Below are positions 44,204-64,000 of a stretch of DNA of 64,000 bases, in pieces. Positions within the stretch are counted from its first letter, which is position 1, and each line of letters starts with the position of its first letter. The DNA is taken from the NCBI RefSeq assembly GCF_003072625.1, contig NZ_CP027805.1:1449501-1513500 (forward strand), read 5' to 3'. Source of the DNA: Limosilactobacillus reuteri (GTDB lineage: Bacteria; Bacillota; Bacilli; Lactobacillales; Lactobacillaceae). Both the position numbers and the translations under genes were made by a program. The notes under the pieces are model-generated. The model saw only the letters and a list, made by a program, of their open reading frames with translations, ran no database searches and was not told the origin of the DNA.

Positions 44204-44979
44204 TGATTGTTTCTGACCACCTACTTCATATTATCGACTTCAAATATGGGAAAGGTGTCCGAGTGGAAGCCAAGAATAATCCACAGATGAAGCTCTACGC
44301 CATTGGTGCCCTAGAAATGTTCGGTAACTTGTACAACGTTGGCGAAATCAAAACTACAATTTTTCAACCTCGCATGGCCAATATTAGTACTTGGAGGATT
44401 GATGCCAAGCAGCTCATACACTGGGCTAACACCGAACTCAAGCAAAAGGCTGAATTAGCTTTTTCTGGCAAAGGTACTATCCGTTATGGTCCCTGGTGCC
44501 AATTCTCTGCTTGTAATGCTGTGCTGCGAGCCCGATATGACTATCACCATAAGCTGACTCGTTTTCAGCTTTGCTCTCCCAATCTGTTAACAGACAAAGA
44601 AGTTACTGAGGTTCTGGAACATATTGATGACTTAAACCGCTGGGCTCACGAAGTTAAAGATTACGCTGCTGATTTAGCCATCAACCATGGCAAGCAGTGG
44701 CCAGGTTACAAAATTGTCGAAGGACGATCCGTTCGACACTATAAGGATGAAGCAGCTGTGGCAAAAATTGCTGAAGCTAATGGCTATCACAACATTTATC
44801 AAAAGAAGCTACTACCAATTACAAAATTAGAAAAGCAGCTCGGCAAGAAGAAATTTACCGAACTGTTCAGTCAGGAAATCGTTAAACCCGCGGGTAAGCC
44901 AACCCTAGTACCAAATTCTGATCGGCGCCAAGGTATTGGTGAAGCAAACCCCAAGGATGAATTTAAGGAGGAAAAATAA
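44204..44979 (+). pseudogene. DUF2800 (RecB-like exonuclease fold) phage protein, 5' truncated
   Basis: The remaining C-terminal part reads IVSDHLLHIIDFKYGKGVRVEAKNNPQMKLYAIGAL, with the D-x-KYGKG motif of the PD-(D/E)XK fold in DUF2800. It then has GPWCQFSACNAVLRARYDYHHKL, with one cysteine pair of an iron-sulfur or zinc site. About 100 N-terminal residues expected for DUF2800 are missing at the junction with the IS3 fragment. In related phages it precedes DUF2815 and the DNA polymerase, as here. It ends with AAGGAGG, the ribosome site of the next gene. Confidence 0.82.
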
Positions 44980-44980
44980 T

Positions 44981-45307
44981 ATGTCACAACAAACTAAGGT
45001 CGTTACTGGTATTAACACTCGTCTTTCTTACGCCAACATCTGGGAACCAAAGTCTATTAATGGCGGCAAAGAGAAATACTCGGTCAGTCTGATTATCCCA
45101 AAGTCAGATCAGAAGACGGTCGCTGCAATTGAGAAAGCTACCAATGCTGCCATCCAAGAAGGCATTGGAAAGTTTGGTGGCAAGAAGCCTAACAAGGCTA
45201 CTCTGAAGCTTCCACTTCGTGATGGTGAACCACTAGGTGGACATGCTAGTGCTAGTGATGACTTCACAGCTATTGATGATAGTAGCGACGATAATTTCTT
45301 AGCTTAA
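44981..45307 (+). CDS. DUF2815 phage protein with an internal in-frame deletion
   Basis: A 108-residue product. The first part (KVVTGINTRLSYANIWEPKSINGGKEKYSVSLIIPKSD) is DUF2815, probably a single-stranded-DNA-binding protein of phage replication. Normal members have about 170 to 190 residues. Here PLRDG is followed at once by EPLGGHASASDDFTAIDDSSDDNFLA, the usual C-terminus, so the central 65 to 75 residues are absent while the frame is kept. Recombination between two short repeats that encode RDG is a plausible cause. Start ATG 44981 has AAGGAGGAAAA. Function of the short form is doubtful. Confidence 0.8.
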   Translation: MSQQTKVVTGINTRLSYANIWEPKSINGGKEKYSVSLIIPKSDQKTVAAIEKATNAAIQEGIGKFGGKKPNKATLKLPLRDGEPLGGHASASDDFTAIDDSSDDNFLA

Positions 45308-45315
45308 ATCAGAAA

Positions 45316-45346
45316 ACGGGTAGTTACTTTGGCTACCCATTTTTTG
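45316..45346 (+). terminator. Terminator after the DUF2815 gene
   Basis: GGGTAG (45318-45323) pairs with CTACCC (45333-45338), followed by ATTTTTTG. Confidence 0.8.
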
Positions 45347-45361
45347 TAGAAAGGATTCCTA

Positions 45362-47285
45362 ATGAAGCAAATCTCGATTGATATCGAAACTTATTCTAGT
45401 ACCAACCTGAATCAAACTGGTGTTTATCGCTATGCTGATAGCGACGATTTTAAACTTTTGCTCTTTGGTTATGCCACTGACTTTGGACCAGTCAAGGTGG
45501 TGGACTTAACTCAAGGTGAAAAAATTCCACAACAAATTGTTGAAGCCCTAGATGATCCCACCATTATCAAAAGTGCATTTAATGCTCAATTTGAACGAGT
45601 TTGCCTATCACGGTTTGTGGGGCATTGCCTAAAACCGGTCGGTTGGCACTGCTCACGAGTATGGTCTGCTACCCTTATCGTTACACGACGTGGGTACTGT
45701 TTTAGGACTCCCTCGTCAAAAGATTACGGCTGGAAAAGAACTCGTGCGCTACTTCTGTACTCCCTGCAAGCCAACCAAATCTAATCAAAATCGCACACGT
45801 AATTTTCCTTATCATGCACCTGACAAATGGCAGCAATTCAAACATTACAACCAACGTGACGTTGAAGTTGAAATGGAAATTACCCAGAAACTTGAACGCT
45901 TTCCAGTTCCCCAAAATGAATGGGAAAACTACTGGATGGATCAGGATATCAATGACCGCGGTATTCGGATTGATCAACAACTTGTCAACAACGCCATCAA
46001 ATGTCAGGAAAAGTTCCATGATAAGTACTTGCAAAACTCCAAAGAACTAACTGGTCTGGCCAATCCCAATTCACCATTGCAGTTGAAAGATTGGCTCAAC
46101 CAGCAGGGAGTAAAAACTAATTCGCTCTCGAAGGCTGCGGTAACTCAACTTTTGCAAACTACCACCGGTAAGGTTCATCAAATTCTAAGCCTGCGTCAAC
46201 TGTTATCAAAATCTAGTGTAAAGAAGTATCAGGCGATGCAAAAAGCAATGTGCCAAGATGGCCGCGTTCATGGACTCCTACAATTTTATGGTGCCAATCG
46301 GACTGGTCGGTGGGCTGGGCGCTTAGTACAAGTACAAAACCTACCCCGTAATTCAATGCCTGACCTAGAAGAAGCTCGTGAACTAGTTAAACAAGGCAAC
46401 ACTACTACGATCTCGATGCTTTACGACTCAGTACCAGCCGTCCCATCACAATTAATTAGGACCGCCTTCATCCCCAGCCAAGGGCACCATTTCTATGTGG
46501 CTGACTTTTCGGCCGTTGAAGCGCGGGTGATCGCCTGGCTGTCGGATGAAGAATGGCGACAAAAAGCTTTCGCCAATAATGAGGACATCTACTGTGCATC
46601 CGCTAGTCAGATGTTTGGCGTTCCCGTTGTTAAACACGGAGTTAATGGTGAGCTCCGGCAAAAAGGCAAGATTGCTGAACTTGCATTAGGGTATGGTGGC
46701 TCCATCGGGGCACTCAAAGCTATGGGTGCGACTAAATTAGGCCTAACCGAGGAAGAATTACCTCCATTGGTACAAATGTGGCGTAATGCTAGCCCTCACA
46801 TCGTGCAGTTTTGGTGGGATATCGACAAAGCAGCAAAAGAATGTATTAAAACGCACCTACCACGAACCACCCACGGAATGAAGTTTATTTATCGTAGTGG
46901 CTGTATGTTCTTACGATTACGGTCAGGTCGCAACCTTTGCTACCCTCAGCCAAAGATTGGTACTAACCGTTTTGGTAGCGAATCCATTACCTTTATGGGT
47001 ATTAACACTGTTAAAAAGTGGTCCCGTATTGAAACCTATGGGGCAAAGCTCGTTGAAAACATTGTCCAAGCAACCAGTCGTGACTTGTTAGCTGAAGCAA
47101 TGCGACGCTTAGAAGCTACTGGTAACCATATTGTCATGCACATTCATGATGAAGCCGTGATCGATGCCCCAGCTGATCGTTCATTAGAAAAAATAGTCAA
47201 GATTATGACCGAAGTCCCGGCCTGGGCTGATGGTTTAATTCTCAATGCTGCTGGTTTTGTCAGTGACTTTTACAAAAAAGATTAA
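45362..47285 (+). pseudogene. Phage DNA polymerase I (family A), frameshifted
   Basis: The first part (ISIDIETYSSTNLNQTGVYRYA, FNAQFERVCLSRF) is a DnaQ-like 3'-5' exonuclease domain. The second part holds the family A polymerase core: FHPSQG-like FIPSQGHHFYVADFSAVEARVIAWL (motif A), RQKGKIAELALGYGGSIGAL (motif B) and MHIHDEAVID (motif C). At about 45669-45675, VWSA is followed by LIVTRRG instead of the expected LGLPLSLHDVGTVLGL, which appears in the other frame. A small deletion (for instance 11 bases between GCT repeats) restores a 644-residue protein. Split products are unlikely to be active. Confidence 0.88.
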
Positions 47286-47304
47286 ACATAATGGTTTACT
47301 TTCT

Positions 47305-47337
47305 GCCCTCATCTGGCTTATCAGTGAGGGCTTTTTG
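47305..47337 (+). terminator. Terminator after the DNA polymerase
   Basis: GCCCTCA pairs with TGAGGGC, followed by TTTTTG, between 47305 and 47337. Confidence 0.8.
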
Positions 47338-47369
47338 AGTTCTCAAACTATATGAAAGGATCTGAATTT

Positions 47370-47756
47370 ATGTCAGAAGCAACCATGGCAATTGCCAAGC
47401 TGCGCAATAACAAGCCGAATCCTAATTACCGGCCAATGATTTTCGTAATTGCACCCTTTACTGAGGTAGTAAAAGGTGATGCAGCAGTCATTGAAGCAGT
47501 TCGATCTTACTGCCGTTTTGTCTACCAACAAGGTGGAATCCCGGTTTGTCCGCAGCTCTATTTACCCCAATTTATTAATCTTCGTCACTCGCAGGAATTT
47601 CAAGTAGCTGCCTTTATCAACATCGTGCTGCTAACCAAGTGTGCAGAAGCTTGGTCGTTTGGCAACTCCACTCACGATACACGTTATTTTATCCGCCTTG
47701 CTAAACGTAAAAATAAGGAAGTCCGCTACTTTAATTCAGAAATGGAGGATTATTAA
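47370..47756 (+). CDS. Phage DUF4406-like protein (nucleoside deoxyribosyltransferase fold)
   Basis: A 128-residue protein. MIFVIAPFTEVVKGDAAVIEAVRSYCRFVYQQGGIPVCPQLYLPQF has the pattern of the DUF4406 family, whose fold is related to nucleoside 2-deoxyribosyltransferases. CAEAWSFGNSTHDTRYFIRLAKRKNKEVRYF continues the fold. The catalytic residues cannot be assigned. Start ATG 47370 is behind AAAGGA and is preferred to the earlier ATG at 47352. The next gene follows after one base, with its ribosome site inside this gene. Confidence 0.72.
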   Translation: MSEATMAIAKLRNNKPNPNYRPMIFVIAPFTEVVKGDAAVIEAVRSYCRFVYQQGGIPVCPQLYLPQFINLRHSQEFQVAAFINIVLLTKCAEAWSFGNSTHDTRYFIRLAKRKNKEVRYFNSEMEDY

Positions 47757-47757
47757 G

Positions 47758-50006
47758 ATGCACTTTACTTTATCGACAGCAACCAATTCCGGTCAGGCCA
47801 GCAATACTATTTATCCAAACCAGCTGGCCATTGCTAGCCCTCAAGAACTAAAAAAAGTCGTACAGTACGACCATGTTTGTGGATTATTCAAGAACAATCA
47901 ACGCAACATTGGCAATTTTGTTAAGGCCGACTGCCTAGTCATGGACTGTGATAATGACCATTCAGATGATCCTGCCACCTGGATTAATCCAACCAGTATT
48001 GCTAACTACTTTGATGACGTTTCCTACGCTATCACCTTGTCGCGTAACAATATGAAAACGAAAAATAAGAAAGCTCCGCGACCAAAGTTTCATATCTACT
48101 TTCCAATTAGTGAAATTGGTGATGCAAGAACCTATGCCGAATTGAAACACGAAATTCAAGAATACTTTCCCTACTTTGATGATAATGCTCTCGACGCTGC
48201 CCGCTTCGTCTTTGGTGTTCCTAATACAGAAACTAGTTGGCACGAGGGGTCACAAACCATCGACCAGTTTATGATGGCCCAACGTTACTTTGCTAAGCAA
48301 AACGTGGGATCAATTCATGTAGGAAAACGCAATACGACCCTCTCTCACTTTGCTGGTCGAATCATTATGCGACTTGGTAACACCTCCGAAGCCCGACAAG
48401 CATTCCAAGATGAAGCCGCTAAGTGTGACCCACCATTAAAAGATCCAGAGTTAAGAACAATCTGGCACAGTGCTATTAAATTTGGCCAGCGGATGACTAG
48501 TCAAAAAGGCTATATTCCACCTGAAGAATATAACCAACCAAACGATGACCTTCGACCGGATGATTACTCTGATACTGGTGAATCTTATGTATTTGTCGAC
48601 AACTGCAAAGACCAGGTTTGCTACACCAATCAGTCCGGTTTCATGTGGTTTGACGGTAAAGTTTGGCAAGAATCAGAACCACTCGCCCTCGGTGAGGTTC
48701 AGCGCTTTACTGATAGGCAACTCGCCGATGCTCAATTACGGGTCACCAAGGCTTATCAGGTAATCCAGCAAAATGGTGTGGCAAAAGATATCCAAACAAT
48801 GGGCAAAACTAAGGCCAGTCGGTCATTTAATGATGATCAACAGACTGCCTTTAAGGAATACGAAAATGCCAAGGCTTATGAAGCTTTTGTTCTCAAGGAA
48901 CGGAGTACCCGTGGTATTAATGGAATCCTGACAAATGCACGCCCAAAGCTAGTCAAAGAAATTAATGAGTTTGATGCTGACCCATTTCTATTGAATACTC
49001 CGAATGGCCCCTTCAACTTAAAGAAAGGGATCCATGGTCGACAAGATATTCAGGCTAGTGAGTTAATCACTAAGTCCACATCTTGCATTCCTAGTGACCA
49101 AGGAACTGCAATCTGGCAAGAAACACTGAATACATTCTTTTGCGGTGATCAGGATCTGATGAATTATGTTCAAGAAATTGTAGGACTCGTGGCTATCGGT
49201 CAAGTCTATCTTGAAGCGTTGATTATTGCTTATGGTAGTGGGCGAAATGGTAAATCCACTTTCTGGAACACAATCGCCAATGTACTTGGATCTTATACTG
49301 GTCACCTCTCAGCCGATGCCTTGACCACCGGTGTCCGCCGCAATGTCAAGCCGGAAATGGCTGAAGTTAAAGGAAAACGCCTGATCATCTCTGCCGAACT
49401 GGAAGAAGGTAAACGACTTAACACCTCAATCGTCAAACAACTTTGTTCAACTGATGAAATCTATGCTGAAAAGAAATACATGAAACCCTTCTCCTTTACG
49501 CCAAGCCACACCATTGTGCTTTATACCAACTATCTACCTCACGTTGGTGGAAATGATGAAGGAATCTGGCGTCGATTAATCGTGATTTTTTTAAAGCCAC
49601 GATCGCTAAATGCAACGATATTAAAAATTATGCTCAGTATCTAACCGAAAAAGCCGGTCCAGCTGTTCTGCAGTGGATCATTAAGGGTGCGCAGCGAATC
49701 ATTCAGCAAAATTACCAGCTAACTACTCCGGCAGCAGTTAGTAAAGCAGTCAAAGCCTATCATGCTGATAACGACTGGCTAGGTCATTTTCTCAATGAAA
49801 ATTGCGAACTTGACCCCAGCTATGAGCAAAAGTCAGGTGATCTCTATCAAAAATACCGAGAGTACTGCCAAGGTATCGGCGAATATATTCGAAGTACCAC
49901 TGACTTTTATACAGCTCTCAAGAATGCAGGTTTTCAACGTCAGCGTAAGAATACTGGATCCTATGTTCACGGACTGCGCTTAAAGACATCAGAATTTCTC
50001 GACTAA
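47758..50006 (+). pseudogene. Phage primase-helicase (P4/D5 type), frameshifted near the C-terminus
   Basis: A protein that would have 749 residues. An N-terminal primase-polymerase-like part (GNFVKADCLVMDCDNDHSDD, KAPRPKFHIYFPISE, LDAARFVFGVP) is followed by a D5/VapE superfamily 3 helicase domain with Walker A YGSGRNGKSTFWN and SHTIVLYTNYLPHVGGNDEGIWRRL. At the T run 49577-49583, IVI should continue with PFKATIAKCNDIKNYAQYL but one base is missing, so the frame ends at 49644. The lost part continues in the other frame to 50006. Most of the ATPase survives, but the winged-helix end is lost. Confidence 0.88.
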
Positions 50007-50208
50007 CACTTAACTTACACAAAAATAATCATCAAAATCACTGTCACAGCAAGCTTTTTAGCTAGTTAGTGTTGGTCATGATGGTCTTTTACCTTACATG
50101 TATATAGAAATAAAAAATTTAAAAAAAGAGATATAGAAAAGAGTAGTAAATCGCCTAACACCACTTACACAAAGCCTGATGTCAAGGCGATTAGAAAGGA
50201 TTTCTAAA
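50007..50208. other. Intergenic region with repeated CTTACACAAA and a hairpin
   Basis: CTTACACAAA occurs twice, preceded by TAACACTTAA (50003-50022 area) and by CTAACACCA (50154-50172 area). AATCGCCT (50149) and AGGCGATT (50185) form an outer stem that encloses the second copy, just before the VRR-NUC gene. No gene is recognised. The site could be a replication or regulatory element of the phage; this is not supported by anything beyond the repeats. Confidence 0.4.
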
Positions 50209-50490
50209 ATGTTAGAAAAACGAATTGAAGCAGCTTTTGTCAAGGCTACTCAACTACGCGGTGGACTTTGCCTAAAATTCACCTCCCCATCGATGGCTGG
50301 AGTACCGGATCGACTGGTCCTACTTCCTGATGGCCACATGGGTTTTGTTGAAATGAAGGCCCAAGGTATGCATCCTCGTCCCTTGCAAGTCCAAAGACTT
50401 AATCAACTAAAGCAACTTGGTTATCAAGTTTTTGTTTGTGATCAATTTGAACAGATCGGAGGAATGCTAGATGCAATACAAGCCGCATGA
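50209..50490 (+). CDS. VRR-NUC domain nuclease
   Basis: A 93-residue phage-type nuclease. MAGVPDRLVLLPDGHMGFVEMKAQGMHPRPLQVQRLNQLKQLGYQVFVCDQ shows the VRR-NUC core, with Asp in PDR and the E-x-K motif in FVEMKAQ. It is a single-domain version of the Holliday-junction-like endonucleases, probably helping phage recombination or replication. ATG 50209 has GAAAGGA upstream. It overlaps the SNF2-like gene by 20 bases. Confidence 0.87.
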   Translation: MLEKRIEAAFVKATQLRGGLCLKFTSPSMAGVPDRLVLLPDGHMGFVEMKAQGMHPRPLQVQRLNQLKQLGYQVFVCDQFEQIGGMLDAIQAA

Positions 50491-51823
50491 ATACCAACAA
50501 TATGCAACCAGGTTCATTCTGGAACATCCGGTAGCTGCAATCTTACTTGACATGGGTTTAGGTAAGAGTGTCATTACTCTGACGGCCATCAAGCAACTCA
50601 TCCATCAAGATAAAGTTCACCGGGTACTAGTTGTTGCCCCGCTGCGTGTTGCCAAGCAAACCTGGCCGGAAGAAATCAATAAGTGGGATCACTTAAAAGA
50701 TTTAACTTACTCAGTAATCACTGGCAACAAAAGCCAACGGGTCAAGGCTGCCCAAAAAGAAGTCGATATCTACATCATTAACCGAGAAAACTTAAAATGG
50801 CTCATCGAATCATCCATTCCATTTGATTACGACATGCTCGTCATTGATGAACTGTCTAGCTTCAAGTCTTATCGCTCCCAACGCTTCAAAGCCTTAAAAC
50901 GAGTTCGACCGTTGATTAAACGCATTGTGGGATTGACTGGTACTCCATCGTCCAACGGTTTGATGGATTTGTGGGCGGAGTTCCGGGTGCTGGATATGGG
51001 TAAACGTCTTGGTCGCTTCATCTCATATTACAGAGCAAACTATTTTGACCCCGACAAGCGCAACATGTATCAGGTGTTTACTTACAAGCCAAAGCCAGGT
51101 GCAGAACAAAGTATTTACCGTGCTATTGATGACATTACCATTTCCATGAAGTCCAAGGACTACTTGCAACTACCACCCTTAACAATGAACACCGTGCCAG
51201 TAAAGATGAGTCCCAGCGAGCAGGCCATTTATGATGAATTAAATGCGCAGTTAGTGGTTTCCACCCAAGGTAAACAAATCGATGCCCTTAACGCTGCTAG
51301 TCTTTCTAATAAGCTTTGCCAGATGGCCAACGGTTGTGTCTATGATGATCAGCAACAAATGGTGCAAATCCATCAACGCAAACTAGACGCTCTAGAAGAT
51401 TTAGTTGAAGCCGCCAATGGCAAGCCGGTACTCATTGCTTACTGGTTCAAACATGACCTAGCACAAATTAAACAACGCTTCCAGGCACGTGAGATTAAAA
51501 CCACTCAGGACATTAAAGACTGGAACGCTGGTAAAATTCCACTGGCTTTAATTCACCCCGCTTCAGCCGGTCATGGTTTAAACTTGCAGGCTGGTGGCTC
51601 CACCTTAATCTGGTATGGTCTGACCTGGAGTCTGGAGCTTTACCAGCAAACTAATGCCCGACTATGGCGGCAAGGTCAGCAACAGCCTGTGGTAATTTAC
51701 CATCTCATTACTGAAGGCACTATCGATGAAAACATTATGACAGCCTTAAAGCAAAAGGATAAAACTCAGTTGGCTTTGATTAATGCGGTGAAGGCTAACT
51801 TGAAAGGAAGTGTTGTAGCATGA
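50471..51823 (+). CDS. Phage SNF2/DEAD-like helicase
   Basis: A 450-residue helicase of superfamily 2. Walker A is in DMGLGKSVITLT (residues 27-38), and the DEAH box is DELS in VIDELSSFKSYRS (124-136). TGTPSSNGLMDLWAEF is motif III. The C-terminal helicase lobe has SAGHGLNLQAGGSTLIWYGLTWSLELYQQTNARLWRQGQQQPV. It is typical of the genes that precede the packaging module in this phage family. ATGA overlaps with the next gene, so translation is coupled. The frame is intact. Confidence 0.9.
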   Translation: MQYKPHEYQQYATRFILEHPVAAILLDMGLGKSVITLTAIKQLIHQDKVHRVLVVAPLRVAKQTWPEEINKWDHLKDLTYSVITGNKSQRVKAAQKEVDIYIINRENLKWLIESSIPFDYDMLVIDELSSFKSYRSQRFKALKRVRPLIKRIVGLTGTPSSNGLMDLWAEFRVLDMGKRLGRFISYYRANYFDPDKRNMYQVFTYKPKPGAEQSIYRAIDDITISMKSKDYLQLPPLTMNTVPVKMSPSEQAIYDELNAQLVVSTQGKQIDALNAASLSNKLCQMANGCVYDDQQQMVQIHQRKLDALEDLVEAANGKPVLIAYWFKHDLAQIKQRFQAREIKTTQDIKDWNAGKIPLALIHPASAGHGLNLQAGGSTLIWYGLTWSLELYQQTNARLWRQGQQQPVVIYHLITEGTIDENIMTALKQKDKTQLALINAVKANLKGSVVA

Positions 51824-52287: not shown

Positions 52288-52374
52288 AAAGGTAAAACGG
52301 AGAACAAACAAGAGGCTTATCCATGTTACGATGATAGTGTAGAAAATTAGGACAAGGCATTTGCTTTATAACAT

Positions 52375-52412
52375 CACAGCCTGGCAGGTTAACCTGCTGG
52401 GCTTTTCTTATG
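52375..52412 (+). terminator. Hairpin terminator before the packaging genes
   Basis: AGCCTGGCAGG-TTAA-CCTGCTGGGCT (52379-52404) is followed by TTTCTT. It separates the replication genes from the HNH and terminase genes. Confidence 0.7.
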
Positions 52413-52433
52413 CCTACAGGAAAGAGGAGTTCC

Positions 52434-52811: not shown

Positions 52812-52814
52812 ACC

Positions 52815-52925: not shown

Positions 52926-52930
52926 GAGAT

Positions 52931-54699: not shown

Positions 54700-54771
54700 A
54701 TCGTCGAAGTTCCTTGCTATCTGTACCCTTTAGAGTGATGTATACAGTGATCAAACAAGGAGGTACAGAAG

Positions 54772-55392: not shown

Positions 55393-55394
55393 TC

Positions 55395-55601: not shown

Positions 55602-55611
55602 TCATCAATCA

Positions 55612-55641
55612 AGCATTGAGTTAACACTCAGTGCTTTTTTA
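55612..55641 (+). terminator. Terminator after the DUF5049 gene
   Basis: AGCATTGAGT-TAAC-ACTCAGTGCT (one G-T pair) followed by TTTTTT. Confidence 0.8.
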
Positions 55642-55668
55642 GTACAACTGAAAGGATGTGATGCCCTC

Positions 55669-57267
55669 TTGCGAAAACTAAAAGATTACAAGCCAACTAG
55701 GTTCATGGCCAAGGACTCTACTTATAACAAAGACGCAGCTGATTTTGCAGTTTCATTTATCGAATGCCTATGCCATACCAAGGGAACCTGGGCGGGTAAG
55801 CCTTTTGACCTCATTGACTGGCAGGAAAAAATTATTCGCGACATTTTTGGCATCTTAAAACCTGATGGGTATCGTCAATTCAATACTGCTTACGTCGAAA
55901 TTCCAAAAAAGCAAGGCAAATCAGAACTGGCGGCGGCTGTTGCTCTACTGCTTTGCTGCGCTGATGGTGAAGAACGTGCAGAAGTTTATGGTTGTGCTGC
56001 TGATCGCCAGCAGGCCGCCATTGTTTTTGACGTCGCCGCTGATATGGTGCGGATGAACCCAGCCTTAAAAAAGCGTTGTAAGATCCTCGCTTCCCAAAAA
56101 CGGCTGATCTATGAGCCAACTAATAGTTTCTATCAAGTCCTATCTGCTGATGCTTATTCCAAGCACGGTTTCAACGTGTCAGGAGTAATTTTTGATGAAT
56201 TACACACTCAACCCAATCGTAAACTCTACGACGTCATGACTAAGGGTTCCGGCGATGCTCGAACGCAGCCGCTCTACTTTTTAATCACGACTGCCGGTAA
56301 TGATGAACACTCTATCTGTTACCAGGTTCATCAAAAAGCAATCGACATCATGAAGGGCCGTAAACATGACCCACGTTTTTATCCGGTTATTTACGGTGCT
56401 GGGCGTGATGAAGATTGGTCGAGTCCTGAAGTTTGGAAGAAAGCTAATCCCTCCCTGGGTATTACCGTCAAGATGGAGAAGGTTAAGGATGCTTATAATT
56501 CAGCTAAGGAGAATCCGGCTGAAGAGAATACCTTCCGACAACTACGGTTAAATCAGTGGGTGAAGCAGGATGTTCGATGGATGCCGATGGACAAATGGGA
56601 TGCTTGTGCCTTTCCTGTTGATCCCGATGAATTACGTGGCCGCGATTGCTATGGTGGTCTTGACCTGTCATCAACTACTGATATTACGGCTTTTGTACTG
56701 GTGTTTCCTCCTAGAGATGATTCAGAAGGTTACACCCTGCTACCTTACTTCTGGATTCCCGAGGATAACGTTGATTTGCGGGTTCGTCGTGATCACGTCC
56801 CCTACGATATTTGGAAGCAGCAGGGATATCTACAAACCACGGAAGGTAATGTCGTCCACTATGGCTTCATTGAACAATTTATTGATGATCTTGGTAAAAA
56901 ATACCACATCAAAGAAATCGCCTTTGACCGTTGGGGTGCAGTTGAAATGGTTCAAAATCTCGAAGGGATGGGATTCACTGTAGTTCCATTTGGTCAGGGA
57001 TTTAAAGATATGACCCCACCAACGAAAGAACTAATGCGATTAACTCTGGAAAAGAAGATCGCTCATGGTGATCACCCAGTCTTACGCTGGATGATGGACA
57101 ACATCTACATCCGCACTGACCCAGCCGGAAATATCAAACCGGATAAGGCTAAGTCAACCGAAAAAATTGATGGCGTAGTGGCTACCATTATGGGACTGGA
57201 TCGTGCTATCCGAAATGAGGATAATGGTGATTCTGTTTATGATGGTCGGGGTCTATTGATGTTGTAA
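55669..57267 (+). CDS. terL: Phage terminase large subunit
   Basis: A 532-residue packaging motor. The ATPase domain has a deviant Walker A EIPKKQGKSELAA (residues 77-89) and a Walker B in GVIFDELHTQP (172-182). The nuclease domain has CYGGLDLSSTTDITAFVLV, EIAFDRWGAVEMVQNL and a late Asp-containing segment IDGVVATIMGLDRA. This pattern is of the phage terminase 1-like (HK97-type) family. The start is TTG at 55669, behind AAAGGATGTG. All motifs are intact and the length is near that of related proteins. Confidence 0.94.
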   Translation: MRKLKDYKPTRFMAKDSTYNKDAADFAVSFIECLCHTKGTWAGKPFDLIDWQEKIIRDIFGILKPDGYRQFNTAYVEIPKKQGKSELAAAVALLLCCADGEERAEVYGCAADRQQAAIVFDVAADMVRMNPALKKRCKILASQKRLIYEPTNSFYQVLSADAYSKHGFNVSGVIFDELHTQPNRKLYDVMTKGSGDARTQPLYFLITTAGNDEHSICYQVHQKAIDIMKGRKHDPRFYPVIYGAGRDEDWSSPEVWKKANPSLGITVKMEKVKDAYNSAKENPAEENTFRQLRLNQWVKQDVRWMPMDKWDACAFPVDPDELRGRDCYGGLDLSSTTDITAFVLVFPPRDDSEGYTLLPYFWIPEDNVDLRVRRDHVPYDIWKQQGYLQTTEGNVVHYGFIEQFIDDLGKKYHIKEIAFDRWGAVEMVQNLEGMGFTVVPFGQGFKDMTPPTKELMRLTLEKKIAHGDHPVLRWMMDNIYIRTDPAGNIKPDKAKSTEKIDGVVATIMGLDRAIRNEDNGDSVYDGRGLLML

Positions 57268-57295
57268 TTCTGAAGAACTGAAAGGAGTTGATACC

Positions 57296-58561
57296 ATGAA
57301 CCTATTTAATAAATTGTTCCATACCAATAAAGCTTCACCAAAAAATACCCTGTCTAGCACCATGTCATTTTTCTTCGGCAGTTCGATGGCTGGCCAAAAT
57401 GTGACCGAACGCACTGCAATGCAGAATACAGCGGTTTATGCTTGTGTGCGGGTCTTGGCTGAAGGATTAGCTGAACTACCACTCCATATTTATCAATACA
57501 CCAGCGATGGTGGCAAACAGCGGGCAATTAACCACCCGCTTTATTTTTTGCTTCATGATGCGCCAAATCCAGAAATGACCAGTTTTATCTTTCGTGAAAC
57601 CATGATGAACCATTTATTGCTGTGGGGTAACGCCTATGCACAAGTCATTCGAAACGGTCAAGGTGAGATCACTGGGCTCTATCCTTTGATGCCAGATCGA
57701 ATGGACGTTAACCGTGCTGCCAACGGTGAAATCTACTACACCTATACTCGCAACTACGATGATTACCAGGCAAAGAATAAATCGAAGCAAGTAATTCTCT
57801 TATCCGATGAAGTTCTACATATAGCAGGACTAGGCTTTGATGGTTTGATTGGCTACAGTCCCATTGCTATGGCCAAGAATGCGATTGGTTTATCCATGGC
57901 TGCCGAACAATACGGTTCGACCTTCTTCAAAAATGACGCCACGCCTGGCGGTGTTCTCGAACACCCTAATGTCGTCAAAGACCCTGAACGACTTCGGAAA
58001 AGTTGGCAGTCACAATTTTCGGGATCTAATAATCACAGCATTGCCGTCTTGGAAGAAGGAATGACTTTCCATCAGTTATCAATTCCGCCCGATCAAGCGC
58101 AATTTCTCGATACCCGAAAGTTTCAGCTCGATGAAATCGCCAGAATTTTTCGTGTACCGCCACATATGGTTGGCGACCTAGACCGCTCAACCTTCTCGAA
58201 TATCGAGCAACAATCTCTTGAATTCGTTAAGTACACCTTGAACCCTTGGTGTATTCGCTGGGAGCAAGCTATGAATCAACAGCTACTTTCCACTGATGAT
58301 CAACGAAAGTTTTTCGTCAAATTCAATGTTGATGGACTACTACGTGGCGATTACGAAAGCCGAATGAACGGTTATGCGATTGGACGTCAAAATGGCTGGT
58401 TGTCCGCAAACGACATTCGGGAACTGGAAGATCTTAATCGTATTCCTGCTAATGAAGGCGGTGACGAATACTTGGTAAATGGCAATATGCTGCCACTCAA
58501 TCAAGCTGGTAATTTCTATAGTTCTCAACCACCTAAAGAAAGTGAGGAAGCAAAAGAATGA
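57296..58561 (+). CDS. Phage portal protein (HK97 family)
   Basis: A 421-residue portal protein, which forms the DNA entry ring of the capsid. AMQNTAVYACVRVLAEGLAELPLHIYQ, HPLYFLLHDAPNPEMTSFIFRETMMNHLLLWGNAYA, FKNDATPGGVLEHPN and EIARIFRVPPHMVGDLDRSTFSNIEQQ are family patterns. The gene has AAAGGAGTTGATACC before ATG 57296 and overlaps the protease gene by four bases. It is intact. Confidence 0.94.
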   Translation: MNLFNKLFHTNKASPKNTLSSTMSFFFGSSMAGQNVTERTAMQNTAVYACVRVLAEGLAELPLHIYQYTSDGGKQRAINHPLYFLLHDAPNPEMTSFIFRETMMNHLLLWGNAYAQVIRNGQGEITGLYPLMPDRMDVNRAANGEIYYTYTRNYDDYQAKNKSKQVILLSDEVLHIAGLGFDGLIGYSPIAMAKNAIGLSMAAEQYGSTFFKNDATPGGVLEHPNVVKDPERLRKSWQSQFSGSNNHSIAVLEEGMTFHQLSIPPDQAQFLDTRKFQLDEIARIFRVPPHMVGDLDRSTFSNIEQQSLEFVKYTLNPWCIRWEQAMNQQLLSTDDQRKFFVKFNVDGLLRGDYESRMNGYAIGRQNGWLSANDIRELEDLNRIPANEGGDEYLVNGNMLPLNQAGNFYSSQPPKESEEAKE

Positions 58562-59229
58562 AACGTTTCTGGAACTGGAGCGGCCCTCAGAATCAACGTG
58601 TCTTAACTATTAACGGTACGATTGCTGAAAATAGCTGGGTTGATGATGATGTCACTCCCCAAATATTTCAAGATGAACTAAATCAAGGGAAAGGGCCGAT
58701 TGATATCTGGTTAAATTCGCCCGGTGGTGACTGTGTCGCTGCCAGCCGTATTTATACGATGCTAATGAATTATCCTGATGATGTGAACGTCAAGATTGAT
58801 GGTATCGCTGCTTCGGCTGCATCAGTTATCGCCATGGCAGGCACAAAAGTTTCCATGGCTCCGACCGCGATGATCATGATTCATAATCCATTAACCATTG
58901 TTGGTGGACAAAAAGAAGACCTTGATCAAGCTGCACAGATGCTAGCGGAAACAAAAGAATCAATCATCAATGCCTATGAGCTTAAAACAAACCTTCCTCG
59001 TGAAAAGATTTCAGCCATGATGGATGATGAAACCTGGATGAATGTCAATAAAGCGATTGAATTGGGCTTTGCTGACGATATGCTAGGTCAAAATAAAGAT
59101 GTCACGGATTGTTACTCGTATTCAGATAAGCAATCTGAATTGGTTCTATTGAACAAACTAAAACCACAAACAAAATCTAATATCTCTGTTAAGTCGCTGC
59201 AAAAGCGGCTTTCTTTGTTATCACACTAA
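58558..59229 (+). CDS. ClpP-like head maturation protease
   Basis: A 223-residue serine protease that processes phage head proteins. It has LNSPGGDCVAASRIYTML, KIDGIAASAASVIAMAG with the nucleophile serine, and MAPTAMIMIHNPLTIVGG with the active-site histidine; the motif spacing is that of phage ClpP-type proteases. It overlaps the portal gene and precedes the capsid gene. The C-terminal tail (KSLQKRLSLLSH) is typical of these phage proteases. Confidence 0.93.
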   Translation: MKRFWNWSGPQNQRVLTINGTIAENSWVDDDVTPQIFQDELNQGKGPIDIWLNSPGGDCVAASRIYTMLMNYPDDVNVKIDGIAASAASVIAMAGTKVSMAPTAMIMIHNPLTIVGGQKEDLDQAAQMLAETKESIINAYELKTNLPREKISAMMDDETWMNVNKAIELGFADDMLGQNKDVTDCYSYSDKQSELVLLNKLKPQTKSNISVKSLQKRLSLLSH

Positions 59230-59248
59230 TTTTTAGGAGGACTTATCA

Positions 59249-60427
59249 ATGAGTAAGATTACTGAATTACAAGAAAAGCGTGCCCGTATTTGGAAACAAG
59301 CAAAGGATTTCCTAGATGCTAAGCAAAAGGAATCAGATGTACTCTCAGCCGAAGACAATGCCCGCTATGAAAAGATGGAGCAAGAAGTTGTCGACTTAGG
59401 TAAGGAAATCGATCGACGACACAAACAAGCAGAAATTGAAGTGGCACTGAACCAACCCACCAGTAAGGCCCTTACTAATTCCCCAACTGCTGATCAGCTA
59501 CCAAAGAGCCAGGATGCTTATGCAAAAGATTTCTGGCAAATGATGCGTGGACATGCCGTCGTGGATGCTCTTAAAGAAGGTGTGGACCCCGATGGTGGTT
59601 TCTTAGTGCCCGACGAATTTGAAAACCAACTTATCCAAAAGTTGCAAGAAGCAAACGTGCTGCGAACTATCAGTCATGTCATCCAAACCAATAGCGGCGA
59701 ACATAAAATTCCAGTGGTGGCCAGTGAGGGTACTGCAGCCTGGCTCGAAGAAGAAGCGGCCTACACAGAGTCCAATACTCAATTTAGTCAGGTGTCACTA
59801 GGAGCTCATAAGTTGGGGACCCTGATCAAAGTGTCAGAAGAATTACTAAACGATTCCGCATTTGATTTGATGTCCTATCTCTCTGATGAATTTGGCCGCC
59901 GACTCGGTAATACCGAAGAACAGGCCTTTTTAACCGGTACTGGTACTGGTCAACCTACTGGTATCTTAACCGACACTAATGGCGCTTCCGCCGGATCCAC
60001 AGCTGCCAAGGCCGATGCGTTAACTTTTGATGATTTAATTGACCTCTTCTATTCCTTAAAGGCGCCATATCGTCAAAACGCTGTCTTTTTGATGAACGAT
60101 GACACCGTAAAAGCCATCCGCAAAATGAAAGATAAGAACGACCAATATATTTGGCAACCTTCCGTTCAAGCAGGTCAGCCAGACCGAATTCTTAACTGCC
60201 CGGTGTACACTAGTCCATTCATGCCGACGTTGGCTGCCTCTAATAAGCCAATCCTCTTTGGTGACTTCAATTACTACTGGATTGCAGATCGACAAGGTCG
60301 AACCTTCAAACGTCTGAATGAACTTTATGCCGTAACTGGTCAAGTTGGCTTCTTAGGCTCACAACGAGTTGACGGCAAAGTTATCCTACCAGAAGCAATT
60401 AAGACCTTGTCCATGGCTGCTAAATAG
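59249..60427 (+). CDS. Phage major capsid protein (HK97 family)
   Basis: A 392-residue capsid protein. Residues 1-75 are a coiled-coil delta domain (ELQEKRARIWKQAKDFLDAKQKES...EVVDLGKEIDRRHKQAE), which is normally removed by the protease. The mature part begins near DALKEGVDPDGGFLVPDEFENQLIQKL and shows GTGTGQPTGILTDTNGA, KAPYRQNAVFLMND and ILFGDFNYYWIADRQG, as in HK97-like heads. The gene is intact behind TAGGAGG. With TerL, portal and protease it forms a complete head module. Confidence 0.95.
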   Translation: MSKITELQEKRARIWKQAKDFLDAKQKESDVLSAEDNARYEKMEQEVVDLGKEIDRRHKQAEIEVALNQPTSKALTNSPTADQLPKSQDAYAKDFWQMMRGHAVVDALKEGVDPDGGFLVPDEFENQLIQKLQEANVLRTISHVIQTNSGEHKIPVVASEGTAAWLEEEAAYTESNTQFSQVSLGAHKLGTLIKVSEELLNDSAFDLMSYLSDEFGRRLGNTEEQAFLTGTGTGQPTGILTDTNGASAGSTAAKADALTFDDLIDLFYSLKAPYRQNAVFLMNDDTVKAIRKMKDKNDQYIWQPSVQAGQPDRILNCPVYTSPFMPTLAASNKPILFGDFNYYWIADRQGRTFKRLNELYAVTGQVGFLGSQRVDGKVILPEAIKTLSMAAK

Positions 60428-60443
60428 AAAGGATTGATGAAAT

Positions 60444-60722
60444 GTGGCTGCTATTACTTTGGCCGAAGCAAAAGCCTACCTGAGGGTGGATAACACTGTC
60501 GAGGATGACCTAATTACGAAGTTAATCAGCTCGGCAACTGCTACAGTCGAGAATGTACTTCGTCAACCTCTATCCGCATTCGACCCCCTCCCCGATGATA
60601 TTCATACCGCCATTCTCTATACCGTTGCTTACCTTTATGAATATCGGGAAACAGCCGATTTTGATGCCATGATTAAGTTTCTTCGGGCCATCTTGTCCCC
60701 TTACCGGAAGGAGGAGTTTTAG
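60444..60722 (+). CDS. Phage head-tail connector (gp6-like)
   Basis: A 92-residue protein. ITLAEAKAYLRVDNTVEDDLITKLISSATATVENVLRQPL is the head-tail connector (DUF3199/gp6 type) start, and HTAILYTVAYLYEYRETADFDAMI follows. The start is a GTG at 60444 with AAAGGATTGATG upstream. It overlaps the next gene by one base. The frame is intact. Confidence 0.88.
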   Translation: MAAITLAEAKAYLRVDNTVEDDLITKLISSATATVENVLRQPLSAFDPLPDDIHTAILYTVAYLYEYRETADFDAMIKFLRAILSPYRKEEF

Positions 60723-61112
60723 TGCAACAGCAAAATAAACGTGTCAGTAAGATTGTTGACATTGGTGAACTAGACCGACGCATCACTCTATTGAAAAAGA
60801 AATATATCGGTGAAAATCCAAATACCGGTATGGAAATGTACAAGGATGTACGCCTAGGAGATGTATGGGCAAAAGTTTCTGCCCTACACGGTCAAGAGTA
60901 TTACACAGCAGTTACTGTGAAATTGGAAAAGCAACTATCATTTATCATTCATCATTCGTTATCGTGATGACATCGATGAACAAACCAACATTTGGTTTGA
61001 AGGTCGCGGCTATAATATTGGTTTTATTGATGATGTCAAATACAACCATGAGTATATGGAAATCAAAGCTGAATATTCGAGAGGAGTTGATAACCCCGAT
61101 GAAGACAACTAG
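60722..61112 (+). pseudogene. Phage head-closure/head-tail adaptor protein, frameshifted
   Basis: A SPP1 gp16-like head-closure protein (GELDRRITLLKKKYIGENPNTGMEMYKDVRLGDVWAKVSALHGQEYYTA). After LSFII the frame runs into HHSLS and stops at 60965-60967. The natural continuation RYRDDIDEQTNIWFEGRGYNIGFIDDVKY...MEIKAEYSRGVDN lies in the next frame and ends at 61110-61112. The cause is a seven-base tandem duplication, ATCATTC ATCATTC, at 60944-60957. Repaired, it has 127 residues. The last codons overlap the holin start by 14 bases. Confidence 0.88.
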
Positions 61113-61512
61113 TTTAACAATAATTAATACTTGTTTTGGTGCAATTGGTGCCTTTCTTGGCTGGTTTCTAGGAGGACTCGACGGTTTCCTATATATTCTC
61201 CTGATTTTTATGATCGTGGACTATATTACCGGAGTTCTTTGCGCAGTTAATGAGCATAAATTATCCAGTGAAATTGGATTTCGTGGACTTACTCGCAAGG
61301 TTTTAATCCTGTTATTGGTTGGTATCGCCCACTGCCTTGATGTGTATTTACTAAAGAATGGCTCTGCTATTCGCACAGCAACCATTTTCTTCTATATTTC
61401 TAACGAAGGTATCTCTCTGTTAGAAAACACAAGCCGGTTAGGATTACCCGTACCCGATAAATTAAAAAATGTCCTTCAACAACTTCACAATAAGGATGGT
61501 GACAATCAATGA
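61099..61512 (+). CDS. Phage holin
   Basis: A 137-residue holin (toxin-secretion/phage-lysis type, pfam05105-like). Three membrane segments are visible: INTCFGAIGAFLGWFLGG, FLYILLIFMIVDYITGVLCAV and LILLLVGIAHCLDVYLL. KLSSEIGFRGLTRKVLILLL is typical of the family. ATG 61099 is chosen as the start because it begins a normal-length holin; the longer open frame from 60865 belongs to the adaptor. It overlaps the end of the adaptor frame, so no tail genes fit in between. The lysin start overlaps its stop. Confidence 0.88.
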   Translation: MKTTSLTIINTCFGAIGAFLGWFLGGLDGFLYILLIFMIVDYITGVLCAVNEHKLSSEIGFRGLTRKVLILLLVGIAHCLDVYLLKNGSAIRTATIFFYISNEGISLLENTSRLGLPVPDKLKNVLQQLHNKDGDNQ

Positions 61513-61796
61513 TTCCCGGAATTGATATTTCTGAATGGCAAGGCCACGTAGACTTTAATGCAGTTAAAGCTAGTGGCGTAAAATTCGTCCTAATTCGAGC
61601 CGGCTATGGTCGTTCTGCTAGCCAAGTAGACCATTATTTTGCTGAACACTACACACAGGCTAAAGCGGCTGGTTTGCAAGTTGGTGCCTATTGGTATTCC
61701 TACGCTACTTCACCTGCTGATGCAGCTAATGAAGCGCGGGCCTGCTTAACTGTCCTTGGCAATCGTCACTTTGATTATCCAATCTACTTTGATCTA

Positions 61797-62649
61797 GGGA
61801 CTGTCTGAAAACTAAAAATTCAGGTATAATCTGAGGAAAAACGAATCGAGGCATTCCGATGACAACACCTAAACGATACGAACTGGAAGATGCTCAATGG
61901 GACCGAATCAAAGGATACTTCCCGCCATACCGGACTGGCCGTCCATCAAGCCTAGACAACCGTACCGCCCTCAACGCTATCCTCTGGCTCATGCGCAGCG
62001 GGGCTCCTTGGCGTGATCTACCTGAACGCTATGGCTCTTGGAAAACGGTGTATAGTCGCTTCCGAGCCTGGGTAAGTTCAGGCTTGTTCGAACAGGTTTT
62101 TCTCAAATTGATTGACGATCCCGACATGGAAAACTTGAGCTTAGATTCAACGATCGTTCGAGCGCATCAAAAGGCCACTGGGGCAAAAAAAACGCCGAAT
62201 GTATGGTCGAAAATCAAGCTATTGGACTAAGTCGAGGTGGCCGAACGACCAAGATTCACGCACTCGTTGACGGATTAGGGAATCCCTTGGTTTTTCGCCT
62301 AACAGGTGGTCAAGTACATGATAGCCAAGTTGCCAGTGAGTTGCTGGAAGGCTTCGATATTTCTCAATCAAATATTATCGCGGATAAAGCCTATGGCACC
62401 GCGAAACTTCGCCAGTATATTAAAGATAAAGCAGCCGTCTATACCATTCCGCCAAAGGAAAATACCAAAGACAAGTGGACCTGTGATTACCACGTTTATT
62501 GTGAGCGCCATTTGATTGAGAACTTCTTCAATCAGTTGAAGAACTTTCGTAGGATTGCAACGCGTTATGATAAGCTCGCTCATGTTTATCTGGCTACGGT
62601 TTACATTGCCTCAATTTGCATCTTACTTAAGTAGTTTTCAGACGGACCC
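61797..62649 (+). mobile_element. IS5-family (IS427-like) element in the lysin gene (853 bp)
   Basis: Ends read GGGACTGTCTGAAAACTA at 61797 and, reversed, GGGTCCGTCTGAAAACTA ending at 62649. The target TA is duplicated (61795-61796 and 62650-62651). Removing it restores FDLEEKW in the lysin frame. It has two overlapping transposase frames and appears recent, since the inverted repeats and frames are intact. Confidence 0.93.
61859..62634 (+). CDS. IS5-family transposase (two frames, programmed frameshift likely)
   Basis: The first frame (61859-62230) has YELEDAQWDRIKGYFPPYRTGRPSSLDNRTALNAILWLMRSGAPWRDLPERYGSWKTVYSRFRAW, then DSTIVRAHQKATGAKK. The second frame (62203-62634) continues IGLSRGGRTTKIHALVDGLGNPLVF, IIADKAYGT and CERHLIENFFNQLKNFRRIATRYDK, completing the DDE core of the IS427 group. 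The frames are joined at GGGCAAAAAAAACG (eight A, near 62184-62191), a slippery run that fits programmed frameshifting in this group. The joined product would be about 258 residues. Confidence 0.88.
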
Positions 62650-63245
62650 TAGAAGAAAAGTGGCAATTTGCTAATGGACGTAATTTCTGTAATAGCTTAG
62701 TAAAAAGCTTCTGTAGTGTTTTGGAACAGAATGGTTGCTATGCGGGGCTGTATATTTCACGATCACCACTGCAAAACTATATCTCGCCCGCTGTTGCTCA
62801 GCGGTATGCCATCTGGGTCGCCGAATATGGATCGCGTTGTAACTATGGTGGCAACTATGGAATCTGGCAACATTCCTCTACTGGTTCTGTTCCAGGTGTC
62901 AGTGGTAACTGCGACCTAGATTATGCCTACATTGACTATGCAGCAGTAATTAACAAAAAGCAGCCAGCCACCAGAAAGAATTCTGATCAGCTGGCTGCAG
63001 AAGTATTGAATGGACAATGGGGTAATGGTGTCGATCGTCAAAAAAGGTTATCCGCTGCCGGTTATGACTATGCGGTGGTCCAAGAAAAAGTTAACCGTCT
63101 ATTGAACCATAAGTCAGTCGACCAAATTGCACGCGAAGTTATCCGTGGTTCCTGGGAAAATGGTAATGAGCGAATCAACCGCTTGAAACAAGCTGGCTAT
63201 GACCCCACCCAAATTCAACAACGTGTTAATCAATTACTCTGATTT

Positions 63246-63280
63246 ATGCCTGTGGACTATGGTCTGCAGGCTTTTTTCTT
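63246..63280 (+). terminator. Terminator after the lysin gene
   Basis: GCCTGTGGAC-TAT-GGTCTGCAGGC forms a stem with one mismatch, followed by TTTTTTCTTTTG. Confidence 0.8.
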
Positions 63281-63334
63281 TTGCCATGGTTTACTTTTCC
63301 GCTTGTTCTGGCTTATCAGTGGAGGTAATTAAAC

Positions 63335-63568
63335 ATGGTAAAGAAAGTACAACCAGTGACCCATCAACCACTAATAGCAACAAGTGAGCATATCAATTCA
63401 GAGCAATTATTGAATGATTTGCACTATCAACAATCAAAACAAATCATACAGAATATGCTTAATAAAGGCTTAATCTCGCTCACCGAATTTAAGGACATTG
63501 ATGCCTTAAACAAGCAGTCATTTCCACCATTATTAGGGCCCGGAAACGTTGATACATCAAAGTTCTAG
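63335..63568 (+). CDS. Small SHOCT-like protein next to the recombinase
   Basis: A 77-residue protein. NDLHYQQSKQIIQNMLNKGLISLTEFKDIDALNKQSFPPLLG resembles the short SHOCT-like helix pair (an 'L-x-x-G-x-I-T-x-x-E-F' pattern). Small proteins of this kind often sit before large serine recombinase genes in prophages and integrative elements. The function is unknown; an accessory role in recombination is a guess. ATG 63335 has GTGGAGG upstream. Confidence 0.6.
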   Translation: MVKKVQPVTHQPLIATSEHINSEQLLNDLHYQQSKQIIQNMLNKGLISLTEFKDIDALNKQSFPPLLGPGNVDTSKF

Positions 63569-63603
63569 AGCTAACATACCACACTGACGAAAGGAGGGTT
63601 GTC

Positions 63604-64000
63604 ATGTCAACCATTACTAAAATCCAAAGCTACCACCGCGATGTCAAGCATCTCCGTGTAGCGGCCTATTGCAGAGTTTCAACTGACAACATTGAACAAC
63701 TGGAAAGTCTTGAAAACCAACGTATTCATTACCAAGAATACATCAGTAATCATTCAGACTGGCAATTAGCTAAGGTCTATTACGATGAAGGAATCTCAGG
63801 CACCCAACTAACGAAGCGTGATGCTTTAAAAGAACTACTGGCAGATTGTCATAATCATCGAATTGACCTCGTGGTTACAAAGTCAATCAGCCGCTTATCC
63901 CGAAACACAACCGACTGTCTACAAATCGTTCGAGAACTGCAGCAGTTGAACATCCCAATTATCTTTGAGAAAGAGCACATCAATACTGGAGCAATGACTA
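63604..64000 (+). CDS. Large serine recombinase (partial)
   Basis: The first 132 residues of a serine recombinase run off the right edge. The N-terminal catalytic domain has RVAAYCRVSTDNIEQLESLENQ, with the active serine in CRVST, then YYDEGISGTQLTKRDALKELLADC and LVVTKSISRLSRNTTDCLQIVREL. The missing rest should hold the DNA-binding recombinase domain and zinc ribbon. In this phage family such recombinases, often two or three in a row, act as integrase. GAAAGGAGGGTTGTC stands before ATG 63604. Confidence 0.92.
   Translation, partial: MSTITKIQSYHRDVKHLRVAAYCRVSTDNIEQLESLENQRIHYQEYISNHSDWQLAKVYYDEGISGTQLTKRDALKELLADCHNHRIDLVVTKSISRLSRNTTDCLQIVRELQQLNIPIIFEKEHINTGAMT

Follow-up and report, generated by a model that had tools for sequence, protein, structure and literature searches.

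Can a phage-type element with a full set of head and packaging genes but no tail genes be a natural form of mobile element, or is it a prophage from which the tail block was deleted? The question is raised by a stretch of 64,000 nucleotides from Limosilactobacillus reuteri (NCBI RefSeq assembly GCF_003072625.1, contig NZ_CP027805.1, positions 1,449,501 to 1,513,500 of the forward strand), hereafter the window, in which positions are counted from the first letter. In its right-hand part, the genes from an HNH endonuclease to a head closure protein are directly followed by genes for a holin, a lysin, a small protein and a serine recombinase; this order, described in an earlier note made from the letters of the window, was confirmed by Pfam and PHROGs profile searches of the window proteins. 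We consider it probable that the element belongs to a family of capsid-forming, tail-borrowing elements of Lactobacillaceae that descends from phages, most simply through one loss of the tail genes with the rest kept, and that the window copy is a decayed member of this family.

A closure-holin junction shared by relatives

With the capsid protein as the query, we obtained 46 loci from bacterial genomes and 80 of 88 from viral contigs, which, together with two pieces from genome G124, gave 128 loci. The closure and holin genes were adjacent in all 57 loci having both matches, several of which seem to represent the same strain in two collections. The distance from closure residue 76 to the holin was 134–150 bases in these 57 loci, which corresponds to the remaining closure gene, and the two genes overlapped in 55 of the 56 loci measured (by 14 bases in 40 loci, 11 in 12, 4 in one and 2 in two). 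The only locus without an overlap, L071, has a frameshifted closure gene with the sequence found in the window. The overlap is not a product of chance. When the closure gene was read from its start in 57 loci (L021 included, L022 excluded), 28 distinct proteins were obtained; the length was 124–127 residues in 55 loci, the exceptions being L021, a fragment at a contig end, and the frameshifted L071. The 14-base overlap reported earlier for the window itself holds, although the listed open reading frame (ORF) of the closure gene ends early, at 60967, by a frameshift (a 7-base insertion relative to loci L026 and L109); the remainder continues in a different frame as far as about 61112, past the holin ATG at 61099.

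The absence of tail genes between closure and holin was also borne out. No tail family was detected among the core proteins scanned with Pfam and PHROGs, a scan that stopped short of every small ORF, or in PHROGs for ten unassigned cargo proteins. A tblastn search of 20 assembled regions with seven presumed neck and tail proteins of Streptococcus suis phage phi-SsuHCJ3_rum found nothing; the power of this search was low, as the presumed closure protein of that phage missed the closures of the elements too.

Of the remaining 71 of the 128 loci, 70 had a capsid identity of up to 59%, and one (L021) is a half of the G124 locus, which is split. Behind the capsid gene, a long ORF (at least 553 residues) was present in all 43 of these distant loci having at least 5 kb there. 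Tape-measure families were matched by all ten of the long ORFs tested (weakly in L150, 2.5e-11), and the other 33 loci were judged by ORF length only. The holin lay 8–9 kb behind the capsid gene in two of the distant loci (L052 and L128). The same gene order is found in the S. suis phage phi-SsuHCJ3_rum, where closure and holin stand about 10 kb apart and a tape-measure gene is annotated in the interval. Close relatives carrying tails in the same gap, which according to the earlier note would speak against a satellite family, were not seen; tails occurred only where the capsids were at most 59% identical.

We then placed these loci in a tree of 65 sequences of the terminase large subunit (TerL), for which the midpoint root served for drawing only. 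All 29 sequences from tailless elements lay on one side of a branch supported at 100/100 and found in 100% of 200 bootstrap trees; the remaining sequences came from Bacillota, one Mycoplasmatota genome, viral contigs and the S. suis phage. The natural, though not the only, reading of this tree is that the tailless elements form one clade, and the simplest history is one tail loss followed by spread in lactobacilli.

Selection, candidate packaging site and integration

We computed the ratio of nonsynonymous to synonymous substitution rates (dN/dS) from matches with at least 75% identity, 97% coverage and no stops. The median values were 0.010 for TerL, 0.022 for the terminase small subunit (TerS), 0.035 for the portal, 0.062 for the ClpP-like protease, 0.039 for the capsid, 0.027 for the gp6-type adaptor, 0.022 for the N-terminal part of the closure, 0.032 for the holin, 0.067 for the C-terminal part of the lysin, 0.051 for the N-terminal part of the recombinase and 0.13 for the SHOCT-domain protein. 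The median dS was 0.38–1.74 over the genes tested (distinct sequences); many dS values were near saturation, so that the ratios are rough, yet far from 1. These values indicate strong purifying selection on the genes for heads and packaging. In addition, all 14 core genes tested were open in five of the nine elements for which both ends were found (G154, G156, G151-1, G151-2 and G278), where the ClpP match of G278 spans residues 1–206 of 223 and the primase matches of G156 and G151-2 contain two stops before residue 39, ahead of the point at which the matches to other copies start.

The search for intact, syntenic elements proposed in the earlier note was accordingly positive, given the shared junction in 57 loci, the TerL branch and purifying selection, and the syntenic relatives likewise support the suggested family with a polymerase/primase block and serine recombinases. 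On the shared junction, the selection, the TerL branch and the open elements, we dismissed decay as an explanation for the missing tails at the family level. The lost tail block that the note had offered as an alternative fits only a distant ancestor, and the heavy damage that it described is real in the window copy and in some others but is not the cause of the gap.

Two viral contigs deviated in their gene content. In L320 (IMGVR_UViG_2808606958_000003), a family member, TerL leads directly into the recombinase and the head genes are apparently deleted. In L365 (IMGVR_UViG_3300028454_000721), TerL, portal and ClpP are followed by what appears to be a serine recombinase, with no capsid match, and this locus may have suffered a deletion or represent an element reduced still further.

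The spacer between the HNH and TerS genes had a mean pairwise identity of 89.9%, compared with 62.9% at TerS third codon positions (16 distinct elements), and exceeded the latter in 116 of 120 pairs. An exact motif from the spacer occurred once in each of 59 of 366 loci, and among the matches listed all were family members or pieces of their contigs. The conservation of this spacer and the adjoining HNH gene suggest packaging from cohesive ends (cos), with the spacer as a candidate cos site.

The relatives adjoin a gene for a uracil-5 methyltransferase with a TRAM domain, here termed rumA, and the element sits at the 3' end of this gene or in tandem there. Direct repeats flanking the elements, which we take as attachment (att) sites, overlap the last rumA codons, and, as read from the sequence, the element would rebuild the end of rumA. 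The lengths from repeat to repeat were 37934 bases in G156 ([Lactobacillus] timonensis), 37580 in G155 (L. coleohominis), 36327 in G154, 37831 in G124, 38817 in G278, 36637 in G274, 38784 in G160 (in a tandem array), and 39635 and 40135 in the tandem pair of G151, the second measured across joined contig ends. The nine elements thus span 36.3–40.1 kb (mean 38187, standard deviation 1278). In eight of them (G274 is counted in the nine sizes and excluded from the part lengths), a core of 22.0–23.3 kb, which starts at a small early ORF and ends with the second recombinase, is accompanied by 10.8–13.2 kb of cargo at the left end and 1.7–4.9 kb at the right end. Outside the left att site of G156, and at L246:5370-5391, sequence resembling the right end of the element or a second candidate cos motif was seen; remnants of earlier insertions or the old rumA end are offered as an explanation.

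Near-full-length TerL matches with at least 95% identity were present in 10 of the 50 genomes from the genus of the window (its own included), with fragments in two more, and in 2 of the 75 from the genus of G124. A search of a plasmid collection returned one record with a short match. The carriers include Limosilactobacillus frumenti, L. coleohominis, L. panis, [Lactobacillus] timonensis and Lactiplantibacillus garii, the last on a contig with low stated coverage and thus possibly a contamination. The G124 element, from another genus, is 84–95% identical to the window in DNA over the element, whereas the neighboring rumA proteins share 50% identity; this contrast suggests transfer from one genus to another. 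The family is spread over at least two genera.

The cargo consists mainly of anti-phage defense genes, which were present in all eight elements whose left-end proteins were scanned. Type I restriction was found with an AAA_13/PDC-S06 protein in G156 and with an Abi-like protein in G278. Hachiman was found with a cytosine methyltransferase, an NgoFVII-type nuclease and Vsr in G155, and with a type II methyltransferase in G154. G124 and G151-2 share one cargo type, with type III restriction and Lamassu-like/ABC-3C proteins; G151-1 and G160 share another, with a HamB helicase, an SspE/Orf5-like protein and type IIG-like parts. A 274-residue protein neighboring the HamB helicase in G151-1 had no Pfam match to HamA. 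The right-hand cargo slot of the window copy, past the window end, holds a Schlafen/AlbA_2 protein (PDC-S50). In the right slot of the first G151 element (L158:2645-5511), scanned proteins included an isochorismatase-family protein, a nicotinate phosphoribosyltransferase and a NUDIX/NrtR protein, and G274 (L222:18759-19334, L223:849-1607) has similar genes by sequence; they would represent NAD salvage genes on a mobile element.

A proposed life cycle and its alternatives

In the life cycle that we propose, an element at the rumA 3' end would be excised by its paired large serine recombinases at the att sites observed and replicated by its own polymerase, primase and helicase, as the gene content suggests. 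Its own terminase would cut at cos between the HNH and TerS genes and pack about 38 kb into its own HK97-type heads, which would be closed by its own adaptor and closure proteins; here the genes, the selection on them and a constrained spacer are direct observations. The closed, tailless heads would be released by the element's own holin, with its own or another phage's lysin, and would dock onto the tails of a co-resident or foreign phage.

Several observations bear on the last steps. The closure proteins of the elements share approximately 30–36% identity with their counterparts in HK022-like, clostridial and other tailed phages, and this likeness makes a siphovirus tail a fair guess for the partner. 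Adaptor and closure are strongly selected in elements without tails, which would be best explained if the heads still meet tails. Furthermore, 26 of the 57 loci, among them one truncated contig, had no lysin match (for example L029, L030 and L110). The gap from the holin to the SHOCT gene was 101–547 bases in the lysin-less loci measured, and six gaps inspected had no open lysin frame. This points to the help of another phage, which such loci may need for lysis.

A number of results weigh against the reading of the family as functional, tail-borrowing elements. Particles and tail borrowing are predictions from the gene content and its conservation. No convincing candidate for a helper phage with a matching closure, for which the earlier note had proposed a search, was found in 301 Lactobacillaceae genomes, a phage collection and viral contigs. 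In the 301 genomes, the closure profile was matched at full length only in the element carriers G254, G284 and G124; the others were the broken copy of the window, a fragment in G285 and a weak match in G049 (E 9.4e-4). A closure alignment against the viral contigs gave 45 loci, most of them, in the part inspected, on contigs of known members. Sipho_tail, the one tail family searched for, was absent in 5 of 12 carrier genomes, including that of the window. No typical lysogeny repressor was recognized in the core. Four of the nine two-ended elements are damaged: G155 has an early portal stop, G124 a TerL stop, G160 (a metagenomic contig) several breaks in core genes, and G274, with clean att sites, lacks DUF2800, the polymerase and most of the primase. 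A length that stays constant while the cargo varies is consistent with a packaging limit, although the statistical support is weak: the standard deviation of the totals is 1.2 kb compared with 1.5 kb expected from independent parts (n = 8), a modest argument, and the correlations testing whether cargo offsets core length are −0.36 and −0.09 (n = 8). Tails from outside, as for capsid-forming phage-inducible chromosomal islands (cf-PICIs), would reconcile the missing helper with the missing Sipho_tail. As a separate observation, the left half of the G274 element (G274:C3, about 1548364-1585001) contains insertion sequences (IS) and genes that, by reading, resemble those for sugar-polymer synthesis.

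Four other explanations were considered. An ordinary decayed prophage, with its tail block deleted in this strain or recently and a neat junction by accident, would account for a window copy that is broken in the polymerase, primase, closure, lysin and first recombinase and has lost its left end, and for the damage in the other elements just described; we find it scarcely credible, because the same junction in all 57 loci contradicts it at the family level, and purifying selection on head genes whose synonymous divergence is high, the TerL branch and the five elements with open core genes also stand against it. Alternatively, the virus might be split, with its tail genes at a fixed partner locus elsewhere in the same chromosome. 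A Sipho_tail gene does occur elsewhere in 7 of the 12 carrier genomes; however, it is never inside the element, it lies on other contigs or far away, and the remaining five genomes have no match, so that, with this one tail family tested, we regard a fixed partner locus as highly improbable.

That the heads work without tails is unlikely. In this reading, the heads might protect and release DNA that reaches new cells by another route, such as competence, or the element might be a gene transfer agent. This would suit the failure to find a tail donor or a matching closure and the retention of the holin, and movement of satellites by natural competence has been reported (PMC13376191). Against it, adaptor and closure, which by family are head-tail joiners, are as constrained as the capsid, and the defined att ends and element-specific candidate cos site argue against the random packaging of host DNA by a gene transfer agent. 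Very unlikely, in our view, is an element that is mainly a defense island, whose heads draw tails from invading phages and for which transfer is secondary: defense genes in all eight scanned elements and conserved head-neck genes are what it predicts, but a conserved terminase, a candidate cos site and recombinases are unneeded for pure interference, and the family has spread over at least two genera.

We thus prefer the reading of a capsid-forming, tail-borrowing family. On a broader claim the balance is even: a phage lineage may have lost its tails a single time and diversified, in at least two genera of lactobacilli, into elements the size of a phage that make heads, replicate and package their own DNA, in part provide their own lysis and use the tails of unrelated phages. 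The freed space would then ship whole defense islands (Hachiman, Lamassu-like, restriction) between species, and such elements would be neither PICI nor phage. If this is true, phage parts would serve as a vehicle that spreads anti-phage immunity, an entire phage lineage would prove able to persist stably without tails, and complete defense islands would pass from one genus of gut or food bacteria to another. The concept of tail-stealing satellites is young and was developed on small islands of the PICI type, and this lineage would be independent and phage-sized, with its own replication and lysis genes. No published description of a tailless element family at rumA in lactobacilli was found among the papers listed (the best 15–25 in several listings), as judged by titles and the starts of abstracts in a search that left most subscription papers outside. 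Clean att sites, cultured carriers and a candidate cos site make the family directly testable.

The window copy and known systems

In the window, the surviving part of the element spans 44193..64000 (+), as determined by blastn against the G124 element, with which the match begins at 44193; the features are listed in Table 1. The element extends beyond the window to a right att site near 68420 in window numbering, with the att core at 68389. No convincing left att was found for this copy, the left end being lost. To the left, at 37000-44200, transposase fragments and short unrelated genes were abundant by eye, with one fragment confirmed, and this transposase-rich region may be the cause of the loss. 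The terminase, portal, protease and capsid frames are open. The alignment with the G124 element breaks at 61793 and resumes at 62652, and an IS thus interrupts the lysin between about 61794 and 62651. The first recombinase has a stop after residue 199; the second, past the window, is open. With the broken genes named above and the left end gone, the window copy is probably dead.

Table 1. Features of the element copy and its left border in the window
Feature	Position	Strand	Evidence and remarks
Transposase fragment	43862..44173	-	rve_3, rve_2 integrase core; abuts the broken left edge of the element
DUF2800 protein	44203..44979	+	PF10926, 1e-90; first 118 residues missing relative to G124
Enc34-type ssDNA-binding protein	44936..45307	+	PF10991; apparent internal deletion, about residues 111-168 of the G124 homologue
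Family A DNA polymerase	45362..47285	+	PF00476; frameshift near 45670, two pieces in two frames
DUF7768 protein	47352..47756	+	PF24963
D5-type primase/helicase	47641..50003	+	D5_N, DUF5906; frameshift near 49600, two pieces
VRR-NUC nuclease	50179..50490	+	PF08774, below its cut-off; one stop inside a longer match to the G124 homologue
SNF2-type helicase	50471..51823	+	PF00176
Conserved protein	51820..52287	+	No Pfam match; homologue in G124
HNH endonuclease	52410..52811	+	PF01844
Candidate cos site, HNH-TerS spacer	52812..52930	+	Spacer conservation and family-restricted motif
TerS (Terminase_4)	52931..53473	+	PF05119
ParB-like/DNA methyltransferase	53473..54699	+	PF01555, PF02195
phrog_2443 family protein ('amidoligase enzyme')	54772..55392	+	PHROGs
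Small conserved protein	55395..55601	+	phrog_8677
TerL, ATPase and nuclease domains	55669..57267	+	PF20441, PF03354; frame open
Portal protein	57296..58561	+	PF04860, phrog_12
ClpP-like head maturation protease (CLP_protease)	58558..59229	+	PF00574, phrog_94
HK97-fold major capsid protein (Phage_capsid)	59249..60427	+	PF05065, phrog_10
gp6-type head-tail adaptor Ad1 (Phage_connect_1)	60444..60722	+	PF05135, phrog_40
Head closure Hc1 (Phage_HCP)	60722..61112	+	PF05521, phrog_25; frameshifted here, 124-127 aa in relatives
Holin (Phage_holin_4_1)	61099..61512	+	PF05105, phrog_199; overlaps closure stop by 14 bases
GH25 endolysin, N-terminal part (Glyco_hydro_25)	61509..61808	+	PF01183
IS splitting the lysin	61859..62634	+	Two transposase-like ORFs by eye
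Endolysin, C-terminal part with CW_7 repeats	62721..63242	+	PF08230, PF01183
SHOCT-domain small protein (SHOCT_2)	63335..63568	+	PF20612
First large serine recombinase (Resolvase)	63604..64000	+	PF00239, phrog_95; cut by the window end

The staphylococcal cassette chromosome (SCC) elements of staphylococci, in which a ccr recombinase pair acts at rlmH, are not known to have head, packaging or lysis genes. The family resembles them in its pair of large serine recombinases, its location at the 3' end of an RNA methyltransferase gene, its tandem arrays and its variable cargo; it differs in its target, a rumA-type uracil-5 methyltransferase gene, and in its head, packaging and lysis genes. The S. 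suis phage phi-SsuHCJ3_rum, which, judging by its name, is presumably a member of the Phi-m46.1/rum group, shares with the elements 62.8% protein identity in TerL, 59% in the portal, 54% in the capsid and 51% in the holin, and both end with two serine recombinases. For the streptococcal prophages of the Phi-m46.1 group, the insertion site is the 3' end of rum (PMC5053989), and the elements have the same order of replication, packaging, head, lysis and recombinase genes there. A complete tail module, with which such a prophage could build a virion by itself, was not found in the elements. Unlike phi-SsuHCJ3_rum, they lack the approximately 10 kb, including tail genes, between closure and holin, and the annotated right-hand cargo of that phage, metal resistance genes, is unlike theirs. 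The Mulch and Flayer satellites of Streptomyces phages have, like the elements, their own packaging and capsid genes, but they are described as without key replication genes, as parasites of virulent phages and as having direct terminal repeats (PMC10690885). In the elements, by contrast, a replication block is present.

The earlier note had likened the layout of the element to that of cf-PICIs, which make small capsids; neither identity with cf-PICIs nor small capsids are supported by our results. A PICI-type module consists of a tyrosine integrase and AlpA, neither of which was seen in the Pfam-scanned proteins (a set short of every small ORF); the elements have paired large serine recombinases instead. 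Lactobacilli are listed among the hosts of cf-PICIs, the average size of which is about 14 kb (PMC10803314), compared with 36.3–40.1 kb here. In the sources consulted, cf-PICIs are defined in PMC10690885, one is called in Pseudolactococcus (PMC13335696), and the use of diverse tails is described (PMC13345588). Like cf-PICIs, the elements have a complete head and packaging set (HNH, TerS, TerL, portal, protease, capsid and connectors), conserved across the family, have no tail genes among those found, and would rely on foreign tails. Unlike cf-PICIs, they have their own family A DNA polymerase, a holin, often a lysin, a large defense island and kinship with rum-type prophages. The best reading is that these elements work like cf-PICIs yet are not PICIs, and that they should be filed as capsid-forming, tailless satellite-like elements.

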